From Dictyoglomus sp. NZ13-RE01 (GTDB lineage Bacteria; Dictyoglomota; Dictyoglomia; Dictyoglomales; Dictyoglomaceae), in the NCBI GenBank assembly GCA_002878375.1, contig NIRF01000003.1, forward strand, positions 62,001 to 126,000: DNA of 64,000 nt, in the 5' to 3' direction. The notes below the pieces were generated by a model. That model saw only the letters and a program-made list of their open reading frames with translations. It did not search any database and was not told the origin of the DNA. This document shows, one piece after another, positions 6,428-59,380 of this stretch (its first letter is position 1; every line of letters begins with the position of its first letter). The position numbers were made by a program, and so were the translations under genes.

Positions 6428-8857
6428 TTAGCCCATAATTACAGTAATATTATTAACATCCTTTAGCTCTTCAATTGGAATGTAATTCCCTTCTATCTCT
6501 TTTCCATTCAAAATTATCTTCTTAACACCCTTTTGCACTCTACCTACATTTTCTACTTTTATAAATAGCTTTTTCCCTCTAAATATTCTTTCTACACTAA
6601 ATTCTTCCCAATCCTCAGGAATACAAGGATCAATTCTCAATCCAAAATAATCAGGCTGAACTCCAATAATTCCTTCAACTGCTGCTACCATCATTGTGGA
6701 TGCTGTTCCTGTTAGCCAATGCACATGAGCCCTTCCAGCAAATGGACTATCCTTACCTTCTACGAATTGACAAAATACATATGGTTCTGCCTCTCTAATC
6801 TCCGCCTTATCATTCATATTTACAGGATTGTTCTCCTGATAATATTTAAAGGCTCTATTGCCATTACCAAGAAGCGTCTCCGCCCTAACCAACCAACCTT
6901 GGGTATGACAAAATATTCCTGAATTTTCCTTCATGCCAGGCAAGAATAGTATCATTCTCATGGTAGGTAAGCCAAAATTAGTTACGGGAGGCCACATAAT
7001 CATTGCGCCATAATCAGTATTCAATATCTTCTCTACATTATCCATAATTATCTTTTTCTGATCATCCTTAGCAACTCCACTTAATACTGCCCATGATTGA
7101 GTATTTAACCAAAAGCTTGCCTCTTTACTATCTTTACTTCCAATAACTTTATCTCCCATAAAACCTCTTACAAACCTATCTCCATCCCATGCATACTTTT
7201 GTATATTCTCATATAGTTTCTGAGCTTCCCTTTCTGCCCATTCTTTGTCTTTATCAATCTTCTTCAATTCTGCAAACTCCGCAAAAATCTTTAAAGCATA
7301 ATAAAGTTGCATAGAAGCAAACACACTTTCTCCTTCTTCACCAAGACGCAAACAATCATTCCAATCTGCATCTAAGCCCAACGTAAGTCCGTGCTTCCCC
7401 AATTTACTAAGACTAAAATTAAGAGCTCTTCTTAAATGTTCATAAACTGTATCTTCCCCTTTATCAGAATATGGAATAACCTCATCCAAGAAGGCAATAT
7501 TTCCACTTTCTCTTAGATACTGTCTTATAGTAAAGAAAGGCCATAAATGATCATCACATCTATATTCTGTATATCCTGTTCTCTTTACATATTCTGGATT
7601 TTCTAAGGATAAATTTAAGTTTGGTTTTGGCTCATGATCAAAAAATACAAGGGGAAGAGCTGCACCAGAAGATGTTTGACCAGATAACATAATTCTTAAT
7701 CTTTTCAAAGCAGACTCATGATCGAGATGCATTATACCTTGTATATCCTGAACAGTATCTCTGTAACCATAGCCATCTCTTAATCCTACATATATCATGG
7801 AGGCAGCTCGAGACCAGAAGAAGGTTATAAAACACTGGTATGCATTCCAAATATTGACCATCGTATTAAAAGCTTCATCCTTTGTTTTAACCTTGAAATT
7901 CTCAATTTTTGAGTGCCAATACTTTTTTAGTTCTTCAAATTCATAATCAACTCTCTTAACATCCTTATACTTCTCCATAACTCTTCTGGCTTTTGCCTCT
8001 CCACCATCTCCAAGGAGATAAATAACTCTTTTTTCCTCACCAGGCAAAAGTTCTACTTCTACATGCATAGCGGAACAACTATTCTTCCCATAATTAAGAC
8101 TATTACTGCATCTACCTTTTTCTACAGCTATTGGATTTGAGTAATCCCTATAACTTCCAATAAACACGTCCCTATCACCATCAAAAGATAAGACTTTCTC
8201 CCCTACCACTCCAAAAAATCTATTAAATCTTCTCCCCTCAATCCCTGGCTCTCGCTTAATTTCCTTTCCTTCCTCTGTATAATTTTCATTTATGGTTTGT
8301 ATAATCAAGTTATCTTTATAATATGTTCGTGAAATAAAAAGGGTATATTGCATATTAACCAGGTCTTGGTTTTCGTTGGGCTCATTTGTAAACTCTGCAA
8401 AACTAAATAAAGCCAACCTCCTTTTGCTATTTGAATTATTTTTAATTTTCAAAGCCCAAACCTCATAGAGCTCATTCAAAGGTACATAAAATAATGTCTC
8501 TGTTTCTATTTCCTTGTATTTTGAGGTGATTATGGTGTATAAAATGCCATGCCTACAAATACTTTCATATAGAGTTAAATCCTTTTTAACAGGAAGCCAT
8601 GAGGCAGACCAATAATCCCCATCATCTAAATCCTTTATATAGATATAACGTCCGGGGGCTGTAGCTGGAGGTACATTAAATCTTCCCCTTAAAATCCTAC
8701 CCCCTGCCCCAGATTTAACGAAACTATACCCTTGAGCATTATTCGTTATTATTGCTCCATATTCAAGAGAACCTAAATAATTTGCCCATTCTCTTGGTGT
8801 ATCAGGTCTCACAATAACATATTCCTTCTTATCATTGTCAAAATAGCCAAATCTCAT
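6428..8857 (-). CDS. Second GH94 disaccharide phosphorylase (cellobiose/chitobiose-type)
   Basis: This 809-residue paralogue has the same architecture: [16 protein letters not shown] at the start, YGYRDTVQD, and DADWNDCL with the catalytic Asp at residue 501. A TTG start 15 bases upstream would place the strong GGAGGAG inside the reading frame, so the ATG at 8857 is chosen. Features such as CDDHLW and HWLTGTAS resemble N,N'-diacetylchitobiose and related phosphorylases more than classical cellobiose phosphorylase. The acceptor and substrate are therefore uncertain; cellobiose, cellobionate or an epimerised disaccharide are all possible. First gene of the two-gene phosphorylase unit. Confidence 0.82.
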
Positions 8858-8917
8858 AAGTTCTCCTCCCAACTTTTTGATTATTTTATAATTTCAAATA
8901 GAAACTTAAAATTGTGT

Positions 8918-8934
8918 ATAGTATAATATACTAT
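8918..8934. promoter_or_regulatory. Candidate operator palindrome over the GH94 promoter
   Basis: ATAGTATA-A-TATACTAT is a perfect 8+1+8 palindrome that overlaps the -10 box and the proximal spacer. A protein bound here would block RNA polymerase. It could also be A/T-rich chance symmetry around a -10 box; no regulator gene is adjacent. Confidence 0.4.
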
Positions 8935-8948
8935 GAACTATAGCGCAA
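8920..8948 (-). promoter_or_regulatory. Promoter of the GH94 phosphorylase pair
   Basis: TTGCGC (8948-8943) and TATACT (8925-8920) are separated by 17 bases, with a predicted start near 8912. The leader to the ATG at 8857 is about 55 bases. It begins right behind the HD-GYP stop codon. Confidence 0.5.
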
Positions 8949-8958
8949 GTTGATGTTA

Positions 8959-9480
8959 TTATTCTAATGCACCAGATTCTAAAAGTTCTATCAATTTTTC
9001 CGCAATTTTAGGGTCAAATTGCTTTCCCATATTTCTTTTTATTTCTTCAATTGCTTCTTCTTTTGATAATGCTTTTCTATATGGTCTATCACTCCTCATT
9101 GCAGAATATGCATCAGCAACGGCAAGAATCCTAGCAAAAAGTGGTATTTCTTCCCCTTTTAATCCTTGTAAATATCCTTTACCATCATATCTTTCATGGT
9201 GGTATAAAATGGCTTTTAATAATTCTTGCATTGCTGGGAGTTGTTGAAGTATTAAATATCCTAAACGAGGGTGTTCTTCAATTATTTTTCTTTCTTCCGG
9301 AGTCAATGGCCCCGGTTTTTTCAAAATCTCATCTGGAATCCCTATCTTTCCTATATCATGCAACTTTCCTGCTAATTCCAAAGCCTTTAATTGCTCTTCA
9401 GATAATCCTAAGGATTTCCCAATTAATACTGCTACTTCAGCTACTTTGTTCGAATGCTTTATAGTATATTTGTCCTTCAT
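8959..9480 (-). CDS. HD-GYP domain protein (cyclic-di-GMP phosphodiesterase), detached from upstream GGDEF gene
   Basis: The 173-residue product is almost only an HD-GYP domain. It has KHSNKVAEVA, LHDIGKIGIPDEIL with the HD pair at 41-42, HHERYDGKGY and FARILAVADAYSAM. The GYP triad reads GYL (102-104). These enzymes hydrolyse cyclic-di-GMP. No convincing Shine-Dalgarno precedes the ATG. The upstream frame continues unbroken (SFDAVSGLLSAID) back to the TAA that ends the GGDEF gene, which is in the same frame. It therefore looks like the C-terminal third of a GGDEF-HD-GYP protein cut by a nonsense codon. Expression would need reinitiation or readthrough. Confidence 0.8.
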   Translation of the reverse strand: MKDKYTIKHSNKVAEVAVLIGKSLGLSEEQLKALELAGKLHDIGKIGIPDEILKKPGPLTPEERKIIEEHPRLGYLILQQLPAMQELLKAILYHHERYDGKGYLQGLKGEEIPLFARILAVADAYSAMRSDRPYRKALSKEEAIEEIKRNMGKQFDPKIAEKLIELLESGALE

Positions 9481-9519
9481 ATCTATAGCGGATAAGAGTC
9501 CTGAAACAGCATCAAAAGA

Positions 9520-11688
9520 TTAAGTTATACCCTTTTCTTCCACTTCTTGGGAAACAGTAGCATATTTATTTCCTCCTGCCAATTTTGCCTTATACATAGC
9601 AGTATCCGCTAAGGAAAATAGTTTATCAGGATCATTACTATCATGAGGATAAACTGCAATCCCTATGCTTATGCTTAGAGGTATTTTTGTCCCTTGGGGA
9701 GTTATTAAAAAAGTATCCTTTAAAATACCCAATACTCTTTCTGAAAAAGAGATGGCTCCCTTTAAACCTGTTTCCGGCAATATAACTGCAAATTCGTCTC
9801 CTCCATATCTTCCTACAGTATCTATTTTCCTACAAGACTCTTTTAAAATACTTGCTACCTTTTTAATTACCTTATCACCAAATAGGTGACCATAAGTATC
9901 ATTAAAAAGTTTTAGATTATCTACATCTACAACCAAAAGAGATAAATTATGGTTAAATCTTCGGGCTCTTTCTGTCTCCTTTCTTATGGTTTCTTCTAAA
10001 TATCTTCTATTCCATACTCCTGTAAGGGGATCGATAGTTGCAAGTCTTTTTGTCTCCTCAAAAAGAATCGACCCATAAATAGCTCCACTTATTTGAGCCC
10101 TTAAAGTCTCATAAAGACTTGGAGATTCTGGACCAAGTTCAAATATAATGTAACCAATGTCTTTATCTTCATAATAAAGGGGCTCTACTATCAAAGAATT
10201 TTCTTTCTTATTCAGGATATTTCCAGGAAGAAGATTTTTTGAATGAAACTTTTCATAAAGCTCGTGTATATCCAAATCAATTTTATCGTAGCTATATATA
10301 ACTTTTGCATAATTTTCATTCTCATATAGTGCTATATAACAGCTTGGTATATTTAATCTTTTCAATTCTTGAGTAAGTATATTTCCAAGTTTTTGGATAT
10401 CGAAGGTTGATATAAGCATTTGTTCTACTTCACTAATAATATATGCTCTATCTTCTAACTTAATTTTTGATAATGCCTCTTTCCTATTTAAATTCTCGCA
10501 TATCAGAAAATAGCTATTAAAATAAAGTTCATAGGCTTGTTCATTTTTGTAAATATAAGGGGATAAATATTTTTTCATAGTTAGCAAAATTTCTTGCAAA
10601 ATATCTATGGGAATTTCTTCTTTTAGTATTATTCTGTAAAGATGCTCTAAAAAACTTTGATTACCATTAGCAATAGAATCTATAAAGTTTTTTACAAAAG
10701 ACCTCACAAATCCCTTATAATTTTCTTCCAATTTTAAATCCTGATAAATTCTTTGAATAATTTCTTCAAAATCTTTTGAATAATCCTTTTCATTCTCAGA
10801 GAGCAATATGAGCTGAGGTCTACATCCACAAGATTCTCTTACAACAAGTTCAACCGGAAAAGTAATTTTATTGGGAACATTCTTTTTGTTTATTAAATCC
10901 AGAATAAGCTCTATGGCTTTTCTTCCAATATTCTCTAAGGGTTGTCTAATAGTTGTTAAAGATGGAGTTACTACCTTTGATTCATTTATGTCATCAAATC
11001 CAATAATAGCTGTGTCAAAAGGCACATAATATCCTAATTCTCTTAAAGCTTCCCATGCTCCTAAAGCCATGGCATCATTAGAGGCTAATATTGCATCAAA
11101 GTTAATTGAATGTTCAATTATGAAATCTTTTACTATCTTCTTAGCTAAGTCTCTATCAAAATCACCTACCAAAACTAAATCTGGGTTAAAGGGGATGTTG
11201 TATTTTTTTAGAGATTCTACATAAGCTTGGAATCTTTCCTCTGCTTCACTATTATTAATTGGTCCTCTAAGGAATAGTATTCTTTTATAATTATGAGTCT
11301 TAATAAGATGTTCAACTGCTTTCTCTATACCCACTCTATTATCAACTAATAGACTGGGAATTTCTTCTATTTCTGTACCTATACTTACCAACGGAATATC
11401 TTTATATCTTTTACAAAACTCAATTGTATCTGAATATCCAATATGAGAGGATAAAGCGGATGAAAGAATTATAAGCCCATCCAAATATTTCTTACTAACT
11501 AAGTCATATAACTTGCTTTTTAATATATCAAAATGATAAGTTCCAAAAACTCTTTTCCCCAGATAAGTTATTATTTTTACACCCAGATTATTTGATTGTG
11601 AAATTACCCCTCTCCAGATTTTTTCTTGATATTCTGAGGAAATATTATCTGTCAAAAATCCAATAGTTTTTTTCATTGTGTTTTTCAT
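9520..11688 (-). CDS. Diguanylate cyclase with N-terminal LacI-like sugar-binding sensor
   Basis: The 722 residues fall into three parts. Residues 1-290 are a periplasmic-binding-protein fold as in LacI-family regulators (GVISQSNN, ILASNDAMALGAWEAL, IIGFDD, LTTIRQP, VVRESCGC) but without a DNA-binding helix-turn-helix. Residues 300-545 are a helical and GAF-like linker. Residues 550-710 are a GGDEF domain with DPLTGVWNRR, GGDEF at 629-633 and an inhibitory RxxD site (RKID, 620-623). It should make cyclic-di-GMP in response to a small cytoplasmic ligand, possibly a sugar. It follows the sigma factor by 14 bases. Its TAA is in frame with the HD-GYP gene. Confidence 0.85.
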   Translation of the reverse strand: MKNTMKKTIGFLTDNISSEYQEKIWRGVISQSNNLGVKIITYLGKRVFGTYHFDILKSKLYDLVSKKYLDGLIILSSALSSHIGYSDTIEFCKRYKDIPLVSIGTEIEEIPSLLVDNRVGIEKAVEHLIKTHNYKRILFLRGPINNSEAEERFQAYVESLKKYNIPFNPDLVLVGDFDRDLAKKIVKDFIIEHSINFDAILASNDAMALGAWEALRELGYYVPFDTAIIGFDDINESKVVTPSLTTIRQPLENIGRKAIELILDLINKKNVPNKITFPVELVVRESCGCRPQLILLSENEKDYSKDFEEIIQRIYQDLKLEENYKGFVRSFVKNFIDSIANGNQSFLEHLYRIILKEEIPIDILQEILLTMKKYLSPYIYKNEQAYELYFNSYFLICENLNRKEALSKIKLEDRAYIISEVEQMLISTFDIQKLGNILTQELKRLNIPSCYIALYENENYAKVIYSYDKIDLDIHELYEKFHSKNLLPGNILNKKENSLIVEPLYYEDKDIGYIIFELGPESPSLYETLRAQISGAIYGSILFEETKRLATIDPLTGVWNRRYLEETIRKETERARRFNHNLSLLVVDVDNLKLFNDTYGHLFGDKVIKKVASILKESCRKIDTVGRYGGDEFAVILPETGLKGAISFSERVLGILKDTFLITPQGTKIPLSISIGIAVYPHDSNDPDKLFSLADTAMYKAKLAGGNKYATVSQEVEEKGIT

Positions 11689-11702
11689 AAAGTTTCCTAC
11701 TG

Positions 11703-12422
11703 CTAAAAAATCTCCTTCGTTAAAATTTCCTTAAGCTTTTTTAAAGCTATTTTTAGAAGTTTAGACACTTGGGCTTGGGAAATCTGCAATTTCTTAGCAA
11801 CTTCAGATTGGGTAAGATCATAATAAAAAATATAGTAGATGATCTTTCTTTGAATTTCTGGAAGAGAATTTATTGCAATCTCCAATTGTATTTTATCCTC
11901 TATTGGAAGTTGAAAGGATTCCAATCTTTCACTTCTAATTTTTGTCCAATCTATATAAAAATCTTCATCATCAACAGATTGTACAAAAAAGTTTTCTCTC
12001 AATTTCATAAGTTCTTCAACAGATTCCTTTTTCAGATTTAATTTTTTAGATATTTCTTCAATGCTTGGAACCCTATTTTCTTTTTGAAAAATTTCTTGAA
12101 TATAGCTTTCCATTTCAAAAAACAATTTTCTAATAGTTTTTGGAAATTTTATAATGCTTCCTCTATCTCTTAGGTAATGAGAGATTTCTCCCATAATACA
12201 ATAGGATGCGTAAGTAGAAAACTGCCCCTTTTTAGGATCGTAATTTTTTATAGCCTTTATCAATCCAATATACCCAACTTGAATTAAATCTTCAATCGGC
12301 TCTCCACTTTTAAGAAACTTATTTGCCCAATAGAAAACAAGATTACTATTATTAAGTACCAACTCCTCAAGAATACGAGGGTCTTTTGTTTTTTTATACT
12401 CTAATATCCTTTGGAAATCCAT
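11703..12422 (-). CDS. RNA polymerase sigma factor, sigma-70 family (SigB/F/G-like group 3)
   Basis: The 239 residues hold region 2 (EDLIQVGYIGLIKAIKNYDPKKGQFSTYASYCIMGEI in outline, followed by HYLRDRGSIIKFP), region 3 (VPSIEEISKKLNL) and region 4 with a helix-turn-helix (LTQSEVAKKLQISQAQVSKLL). Region 1 is absent, as in alternative sigma factors for stress, motility or development. Its ATG overlaps the pilC stop by one base (TAATG), so the two are translationally coupled. The context suggests a link to pilus or surface behaviour; the target promoters are unknown. Confidence 0.88.
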   Translation of the reverse strand: MDFQRILEYKKTKDPRILEELVLNNSNLVFYWANKFLKSGEPIEDLIQVGYIGLIKAIKNYDPKKGQFSTYASYCIMGEISHYLRDRGSIIKFPKTIRKLFFEMESYIQEIFQKENRVPSIEEISKKLNLKKESVEELMKLRENFFVQSVDDEDFYIDWTKIRSERLESFQLPIEDKIQLEIAINSLPEIQRKIIYYIFYYDLTQSEVAKKLQISQAQVSKLLKIALKKLKEILTKEIF

Positions 12423-25753: not shown

Positions 25754-26191
25754 ATGAGAAGAGAGAAAGGTTTTACCTTGATTGAACTAATGGTGGTCAT
25801 CGTAATCATTGCCATCTTAGCTGCAGTAGCATTACCAAACTTTATGGGGGCAACTGAGAAAGCAAGGGAGTCTGCAGTAAGAAGCGCAGTAAAAACAATT
25901 CAAACTGCCATTGAAATGTATGCAACAGAGCATAGCGGAACATATACTGATGATCTTAACGCTTATACTGCATACCTACCTGGCAATCAGTTCCCAAAGA
26001 GCCCTGCTACAAATCAGCCATATAAGGTAGGCGAAAACCTCTTTGATTCAGATAGTCCTATAAAAGATAATCCAACAACAGCACAACAATACGCTATAAC
26101 TTATCAGTATGATCCTGTTACTAACTCCTATACTTTAAAAGGCTACAACAGAACCAATACCACTGCTGTTATCGAACTTTCCAACAGATAG
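25754..26191 (+). CDS. Type IV pilin / type II pseudopilin (major pilin candidate)
   Basis: The 145-residue precursor begins MRREKG^FTLIELMVVIVIIAIL, a class III signal with cleavage after Gly6, N-methylated Phe and Glu+5. The hydrophobic helix and a small beta domain follow (YATEHSGTYTDDLNAY; Tyr-rich tail NSYTLKGYN). The strongest ribosome site in the window (AAAGGAGGTGA) and a downstream terminator suggest high expression. It is not next to the pilBTC genes but would be their natural substrate. Confidence 0.9.
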   Translation: MRREKGFTLIELMVVIVIIAILAAVALPNFMGATEKARESAVRSAVKTIQTAIEMYATEHSGTYTDDLNAYTAYLPGNQFPKSPATNQPYKVGENLFDSDSPIKDNPTTAQQYAITYQYDPVTNSYTLKGYNRTNTTAVIELSNR

Positions 26192-26213
26192 TTGACTAAT
26201 CCAAATCCTTATA

Positions 26214-26257
26214 TTTAAAATAAAGGGCAAGTGTAAAAGCTTGCCCTTTATTTTAAA
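26214..26257. terminator. Strong intrinsic terminator after the first pilin
   Basis: An 18-bp perfect stem (26214-26231 with 26240-26257; core AAAGGGCAAG/CTTGCCCTTT) encloses an 8-base loop and has A- and T-runs on both sides, so it can work in both directions. It separates the two pilin genes. Confidence 0.85.
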
Positions 26258-26274
26258 AAATAAAAGGAGAGCTT

Positions 26275-26700
26275 ATGAAGAAAAATGGTTTTACTCTTAT
26301 AGAGCTTATGATTGTTTTTATAATTATTGGGATATTATCATTTTTCATATACAATATTTATTTTTCAACAATTGAGAGGGCAAGAGAAACGTCCGCAAGA
26401 GCAAATCTTAGGCTTCTTCATGTGGCAGTAGAAGCTTATGCTACAGATCATGAAGGAAGATATCCTACCGCAACAACCCTCAACGATCTATATTTAAACT
26501 TGAAAAAATACATTCCTAATGGCACATTCCCTGAAAATCCTTATAATAATAAGCCATATAGTGACGAAAATAATGAGCATTATAAAATAACATATACTTA
26601 TGATCCATCTCTAAACTCATATACCCTATCGGTTATGGACCGATTTAACCAAAAAGTGCTTCTTCTTTTATCAAATAGAATTGTATTAGAAGGAAGGTGA
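26275..26700 (+). CDS. Second type IV pilin-like protein
   Basis: The 141-residue precursor starts MKKNG^FTLIELMIVFIIIGIL with prepilin cleavage after Gly5 and Glu+5. It aligns with the first pilin along its length: RARETSARANLRLLHVAVEAYATDHEGRYP, NKPY, ITYTYDPSLNSYTL and a final LSNR. The tandem pair arose by duplication. Lying after a strong terminator, it is probably expressed less and may be a minor pilin. AGGAGAG precedes the ATG. Confidence 0.87.
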   Translation: MKKNGFTLIELMIVFIIIGILSFFIYNIYFSTIERARETSARANLRLLHVAVEAYATDHEGRYPTATTLNDLYLNLKKYIPNGTFPENPYNNKPYSDENNEHYKITYTYDPSLNSYTLSVMDRFNQKVLLLLSNRIVLEGR

Positions 26701-58354: not shown

Positions 58355-59380
58355 TTATTCTCCTTCAAGATTTTTGGATGCTCTTATTAATCTGTCCATT
58401 ATAGCAAGACCAATCCCTTCTAAGGGATATGATTCACTCAAAATTATATCCACTTCATCCTCCAACATTCTCATTCCACTAAACAAATTAACTGCAATAC
58501 TTGGCAAATTTTTCCTACTACCTACTACTAATAATTTTACACTATTAGGATAAAAACTTCTATACTCTTCTGAAACTAATGCACCAACCTTTTTTCCTTC
58601 TTCAAGCCACTTCAATATTCTATTTTTCCATGTATCGTTAAATTCATCAATTATGTACAAAGGTACTTTGGGAGCATAATGCCTATGTTTCAATCCAGGT
58701 GATGGAACCTTCTCATTTTTATCACTTCTTCTCCAAACATTAATTTTTTTTCCCAAAACTTTCTCTATATCCTCCTTTGTACAAGCACCAGGACGCAAAA
58801 TAATAGGCTCTTCTTCTGTTAGATCCAATACTGTGGATTCCAATCCATAAACAACCTCCCCTCCATCTAATATCACATCTATTCTATCTCCTAAATCCTC
58901 TAAAACATGCTCCGCTTTTGTTGGGCTTGGTCTTCCTGATAAATTAGCTGAAGGAGCAGGGATTGGTCTACCAAATGCTTTTAAAAGGGCAAGAGCTACA
59001 GGATGAGAAGGCTGTCTTATAGCTACTTTTTCACTTCCTGCCGTAATAATATCGTTTACTAATGAGGATTTGTAAAATATCAATGTAAGTGGACCTGGCC
59101 AAAATTTTTCTATTAGCTTTTCTGCGTCTTCAGAGACTTCCTCCGCAAGAGAATATATTTCATCTTTTCTTCCCACATGAACAATCAAAGGATTATCTAT
59201 TGGTCTATTTTTTACCATAAATATCTTTTTTATAGCGGACGGATTAAAGGCATCTGCTCCCAAACCATATACTGTTTCAGTGGGAAAAGCTACAAGCCCT
59301 CCCTTTTCCAAAACCTTAACCGCATAATCTATGGCGGACATAGAGATATTATTAGGATCTACTTTAAAATACTTCCCCAT
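58355..59380 (-). CDS. Threonylcarbamoyl-AMP synthase, Sua5 type
   Basis: The 341 residues have the YrdC/TsaC domain (KGGLVAFPTETVYGLGADA, KNRPIDNPLIVHV, PAPSANLSGRPSPT) and a C-terminal Sua5 domain (SPGLKHRHYAPKVPLYI). It starts synthesis of the t6A base in tRNAs. The longer Sua5 form is common in thermophiles. It begins within the end of prmC. Confidence 0.93.
   Translation of the reverse strand: MGKYFKVDPNNISMSAIDYAVKVLEKGGLVAFPTETVYGLGADAFNPSAIKKIFMVKNRPIDNPLIVHVGRKDEIYSLAEEVSEDAEKLIEKFWPGPLTLIFYKSSLVNDIITAGSEKVAIRQPSHPVALALLKAFGRPIPAPSANLSGRPSPTKAEHVLEDLGDRIDVILDGGEVVYGLESTVLDLTEEEPIILRPGACTKEDIEKVLGKKINVWRRSDKNEKVPSPGLKHRHYAPKVPLYIIDEFNDTWKNRILKWLEEGKKVGALVSEEYRSFYPNSVKLLVVGSRKNLPSIAVNLFSGMRMLEDEVDIILSESYPLEGIGLAIMDRLIRASKNLEGE

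Follow-up and report, generated by a model that had tools for sequence, protein, structure and literature searches.

The locus considered here raises the question of why a gene that reads in a single frame from a GGDEF domain into an HD-GYP domain is interrupted between the two by one TAA codon, and of which proteins are made from it. It lies in a stretch of 64,000 nucleotides (the window) from the draft genome of the hot-spring bacterium Dictyoglomus sp. NZ13-RE01 (G000; 1.93 Mb, 34 contigs), which was compared with six relatives from the Dictyoglomaceae (G001-G006), two in the same genus and four more in the family. The window carries, on its minus strand, a 722-codon ORF from ATG 11688 to TAA 9522-9520, beyond which the frame is unbroken for 186 codons until the next stop, which ends at 8959 (minus), giving a read-through frame of 722+1+186 = 909 positions. 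By Pfam, this frame contains a LacI-type periplasmic-binding fold (residues 8-287), GGDEF (550-708) and HD_5 (HD-GYP; 734-895), with the TAA (codon 723) between the last two domains. A preliminary description of the locus had placed the TAA at 9520-9522, with the HD-GYP continuing in frame to about 909 residues, and proved exact in both coordinates and frame. The features of the locus are:

11703..12422, minus strand: SigB/SigF/SigG-like sigma factor gene, the upstream neighbour
9520..11688, minus strand: short ORF of 722 aa, with a LacI-type fold without HTH (8-287), a GAF-like region (~300-545) and GGDEF (550-708), from Pfam and the translation
9520..9522, minus strand: in-frame TAA, next base T, in a column that is proline in 7/7 fused relatives, from the alignment
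9481..9519, minus strand: 13 linker codons, SFDAVSGLLSAID, from the TAA to the first ATG, with no in-frame ATG, GTG or TTG, from the alignment
8959..9480, minus strand: HD-GYP domain, 173 aa from ATG 9480, signature residues present, from Pfam and the alignment
6428..8872, minus strand: large gene, the downstream neighbour and first of two tandem homologues (814 and 811 aa)

An open run of 186 codons would arise by chance with p ~4e-6, given the base composition. Elsewhere in the window a stop is followed by an open run of at least 60 codons in the same frame in five cases; three of these (stops at 58357, 33160 and 17336) are clearly adjacent genes that begin with ATG or TTG 1-3 codons past the stop. 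Genes next to each other in operons often use one frame, as happens at other places in the window, and the length of the open frame taken alone is therefore weakened evidence; what is unusual at TAA 9520 is a homologous linker without a start codon, rather than the open frame.

This linker was found in all the HD-GYP-bearing homologues of the subfamily, which are fused at the same point in 7/7 cases, distributed over the six relatives. Their linker reads P[KN]FDxFLGL[IV][NT][AG]ID, and the window carries the stop in the proline column followed by SFDAVSGLLSAID. Between the TAA and the ATG, the protein sequence of the 13 codons is conserved, with 7/13 residues identical to G003, which indicates that they were once translated as linker. 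A TAA occurs at the aligned position in 0/7 fused homologues, a single genome carries the stop, and the proline codon of the relatives is more than one step from TAA. The earlier proposal that the two halves were once one protein is therefore borne out by the seven fused homologues, whose linker aligns through the stop; neither a separate HD-GYP gene with its own start and ribosome site nor a linker failing to align, the two observations that had been named as contrary to it, was found in the relatives.

Two types of related gene, referred to here as gene 1 and gene 2, stand in tandem in G003, G004 and G005, followed by an iron-alcohol-dehydrogenase-like gene. Gene 1 encodes LacI, GAF-like and GGDEF domains without HD-GYP, in open frames of 722-725 aa in G003 and G004, the contig of G005 carrying only the 3' part, while gene 2 encodes LacI, GAF, a second GAF, GGDEF and HD-GYP (1082-1093 aa in G003-G005). 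Fused genes of the gene 2 type are also present in G001, G002 and G006, in G001 with a partial gene 1 at the contig end. Gene 2 (1077-1093 aa; e.g., L136:7594-10842, and L138:1279-4560 = JAPYWU010000075.1) has the domain order and linker of the window gene, to which it is 64-72% identical in HD-GYP and 56-62% in GGDEF. Unlike the window gene, it has no stop at the fusion and carries the second GAF, and in G003-G005 it precedes the dehydrogenase-like gene, whereas the window gene adjoins the sigma factor gene. Gene 1 (e.g., L136:5412-7580) matches the short ORF of the window in architecture and length, neither of them having the second GAF, with 37% identity over the whole length; however, it stops 8-19 residues past the GG at the end of the GGDEF domain, has no HD-GYP behind it, and its GGDEF forms a separate clade. 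Among solved structures, HD-GYP chains (4mcw family, 5z7c) and GGDEF chains (PleD 1w25, 3ign, 6d9m) are homologous over each catalytic domain, and none of the matches listed was a solved chain matching both domains plus the LacI-type sensor.

In an unrooted tree, the GGDEF domain of the window joins the fused type, apart from gene 1 (99/98). When outgroups are included, the first branch within the subfamily is that of the window sequence, though weakly supported, and gene 1 lies nested among the fused genes. In the HD-GYP tree, the seven fused genes form one clade (95/92) with the window sequence among them. Both trees have as their closest outgroup a GGDEF-HD-GYP fusion on contig C9 of G000, a placement that is weakly supported. 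Based on these trees, on the fused relatives and on a linker that lacks a start but looks translated, sequence comparison indicates an ancestral fusion and a derived stop. As a separate observation on contig C9, a GGDEF-HD-GYP protein of 475 aa adjoins an HD-GYP protein of 1176 aa (L161 3139-6669 and 6636-8063).

The same comparisons bear on the idea that two originally separate genes are seen here, namely a gene 1 ending at its own stop and a gene-2 tail brought behind it by a deletion between tandem paralogues. The tandem of G003-G005 and a gene-1/gene-2 chimera in G002 lend this idea some substance, but the GGDEF of the window is not of the gene 1 type in the unrooted tree and falls outside both types when outgroups are added (weak support), and the length and register of its linker match those of the fused genes within a few residues on both sides of the stop, which makes the probability of such an origin next to negligible. 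The G002 gene itself (G002:C11, L143 1330-4563; 1077 aa) combines a LacI part of the gene 1 type (100/100) with GGDEF and HD-GYP parts of the gene 2 type (99/98), sits where G003-G005 carry both tandem genes, and appears to have arisen by recombination between the two paralogues.

Gene order around the locus has also changed. In the relatives, prepilin genes come after the sigma gene, and an aldolase-like or divergent regulator-like gene precedes the large-gene pair. The window instead has the c-di-GMP gene between the sigma gene and this pair, both members of which we take, by recognition, to be glycoside-phosphorylase-like, an NCBIfam match being absent. On the opposite strand of the window, prepilin-like genes occupy 25.8-26.3 kb, some 13 kb away, and the pilus/sigma block is rearranged relative to the relatives (window 8872-12422 and 25769-26400). 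No LacI-GGDEF gene adjoins the dehydrogenase-like locus of G000. Because the flanks here are the sigma gene and the large pair, against a dehydrogenase-like neighbour in the relatives, gene order indicates that the c-di-GMP gene changed place in the G000 lineage by rearrangement. A search for repeats round the locus gave short weak matches only, and a promoter/terminator scan gave sites no more numerous than in shuffled sequence. On contig C7 of G000 (C7:35800-37374; L008 1441-3015), a histidine-kinase-like ORF (HEFRNP motif, 455 aa) ends in a stop and is followed by an ORF of 63 aa matching the C-terminal part of an HD-GYP domain, which may represent another eroded HD-GYP gene of this genome.

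The first possible start past the TAA is ATG 9480, 13 codons downstream, for which the preliminary description had seen no convincing ribosome site. Indeed, its best Shine-Dalgarno pairing (-3.5 kcal/mol, with a spacer of 13 nt) is at the background level of internal ATGs, 43% of which have a site at least as good; the median is -3.25 for internal ATGs and -8.7 for 47 window genes. The start of the 722-codon ORF is also weak (-4.2), and weak sites are therefore not unknown here. Relatives mostly carry Asn in the column of ATG 9480, and M was found in 2/78 aligned HD-GYPs. These data are relevant to a working split gene, in which translational coupling or re-initiation at ATG 9480, with the TAA 39 nt upstream, would yield HD-GYP as a protein separate from the cyclase. 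Such an arrangement is compatible with an HD-GYP that is fully constrained and open, with a break exactly between domains and with an ATG placed where most relatives have Asn, but it would have to operate from a background-level Shine-Dalgarno sequence with a long spacer, it has no counterpart in the relatives (a separate HD-GYP of the subfamily occurs in none of G001-G006), and it departs from the true same-frame neighbours in the window, which start 1-3 codons past the stop. We therefore regard a working split gene as rather unlikely.

The integrity of the HD-GYP half is central to the age of the stop. The domain (PF13487) scores 157 bits against a Pfam cut-off of 27.2, keeps the family residue in 40/40 columns with >90% conservation among 79 HD-GYP homologues, including the metal-site signature (HD and HHERYDG), and shows no extra stops, frameshifts or indels; it matches the phosphodiesterase family, with c-di-GMP hydrolysis as its putative activity. 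The GYP motif reads GYL, and the third letter is P in 63/79 homologues and another residue in 16/79; since these 16 HD-GYPs also lack the proline, so that the family tolerates variation at this position, the degenerate motif was ruled out as proof of decay. Differences from the fused relatives at codon positions 1/2/3 of HD-GYP amount to 0.29-0.36/0.12-0.17/0.53-0.58, a pattern that is, by codon position, one of purifying selection. Sites invariant in the relatives are changed at 17/109 positions in HD-GYP and 9/77 in GGDEF (p=0.52), the two domains thus being similarly constrained, and at 34/97 in the LacI part. In neutral simulations, retention of the 40 residues without any new stop had p ~0.06 at 0.02 substitutions per site and p ~0.017 at 0.03 substitutions per site, and any loss of constraint is accordingly recent. 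The substitution pattern thus indicates that HD-GYP was constrained over nearly all of its long branch. When the locus is considered as a pseudogene, the frame is disabled by one nonsense codon in comparison with 7/7 fused relatives and signs of decay are absent, and it follows from this lack of decay that the stop arose very recently or, alternatively, that the cell continues to make some HD-GYP.

An undecayed HD-GYP is also what would be seen if the TAA were a consensus error, or a minority-strain allele or polymorphism, and the real gene were fused. A single codon decides the matter in a draft of 34 contigs, with one genome representing the species in the comparison. However, there is no homopolymer or second lesion nearby, the frame is kept on both flanks, and the surrounding linker is itself diverged, so that the TAA is not one altered base within an otherwise relative-like sequence; an artefact or polymorphism of this kind appears unlikely.

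Read-through of the TAA, programmed or natural, would let one gene encode both a short cyclase and a longer, bifunctional enzyme, and the preserved frame and constrained HD-GYP are in line with it. The stop itself gives little encouragement, since TAAT ends more genes in the window than any other stop context (14/47), ARAGORN called no stop-reading anticodon among 47 tRNA hits in the genome (one weak Rfam hit was uncalled), RNA folding round the stop resembles that of shuffled sequences (z -0.63 to +0.40), and the stop is conserved in 0/7 fused homologues. We thus consider read-through very improbable. Frameshifting past the stop was rejected, as the -1 frame meets a TGA and the +1 frame a TAA within a few codons and HD-GYP is unreachable by either route. 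A broader possibility, that one gene supplies two enzymes, mostly the short cyclase together with some HD-GYP, free or attached, through read-through or re-initiation, is improbable as well; if true, the ratio of c-di-GMP synthesis to hydrolysis would be set by translation termination.

At the sequence level, the short product retains the motifs of a diguanylate cyclase. Its GGDEF domain (PF00990) reaches 163 bits against a Pfam gathering cut-off of 23.8, the active-site motif GRYGGDEF is intact in the translation (RKIDTVGRYGGDEF), and the RxxD inhibitory site is kept five residues ahead of GGDEF (RKID-TVGRY-GGDEF). The domain search matched no DNA-binding HTH, and the LacI-type region starts at residue 8. 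Because the GGDEF and RxxD sites are kept and the architecture equals that of gene 1, the short protein is expected to be an active, ligand-responsive diguanylate cyclase. Sugars are candidate ligands, since many LacI-type domains bind them and the adjoining large genes are glycoside-phosphorylase-like. Identity to the relatives is lower in the sensory parts (LacI 34-41%, GAF 25-38%) than in GGDEF (49-62%) and HD-GYP (64-72%), and this strong divergence of the LacI and GAF parts suggests that the input signal may have changed.

Altogether, the explanation we favour, and hold to be probable, is that the sensor enzyme was fused in the ancestor and that a nonsense change arising recently in the linker ends translation after GGDEF. 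The ancestor would have combined a LacI-type ligand-binding domain, a GAF-like region, a GGDEF cyclase and an HD-GYP phosphodiesterase in one protein. With efficient termination after GGDEF, as we infer, the cell would mainly make a soluble, ligand-regulated diguanylate cyclase of 722 residues with its product inhibition intact, and probably little or no HD-GYP from this locus. The module would then have shifted from two-way to synthesis-only control of c-di-GMP, a state held stably by the cyclase-only paralogue gene 1, and the HD-GYP remnant would be intact only because the stop is young. Against a nonsense mutation stand the position of the stop at the one spot that spares both domains, the absence of HD-GYP decay, the distance of more than one step between the relatives' proline codon and TAA, and the restriction to one genome; a random nonsense hit would fall in the linker (codons 709-733) in ~3% of cases, or in ~12% if the cyclase must be kept. 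Of the two explanations offered in the preliminary description, nonsense mutation agrees with the fused ancestry and derived stop, while nothing specific speaks for read-through. Its wording that synthesis was separated from hydrolysis was half right: an HD-GYP without a start site is probably hardly made, and hydrolysis would therefore have been lost rather than separated.

A literature search on Dictyoglomus and GGDEF gave, judged by title and abstract, no report about this split, and none was found combining HD-GYP with 'in-frame stop codon'. If real, the stop would represent a clean natural case of a bifunctional c-di-GMP enzyme turned into a synthesis-only one by a single codon, with the resulting domain arrangement matching one that related species keep stably in a sister paralogue. 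Resting on one stop codon in one genome, it is otherwise ordinary gene wear. Moreover, the locus points to little-studied soluble enzymes of the Dictyoglomaceae in which a LacI-type ligand sensor is placed on c-di-GMP turnover.
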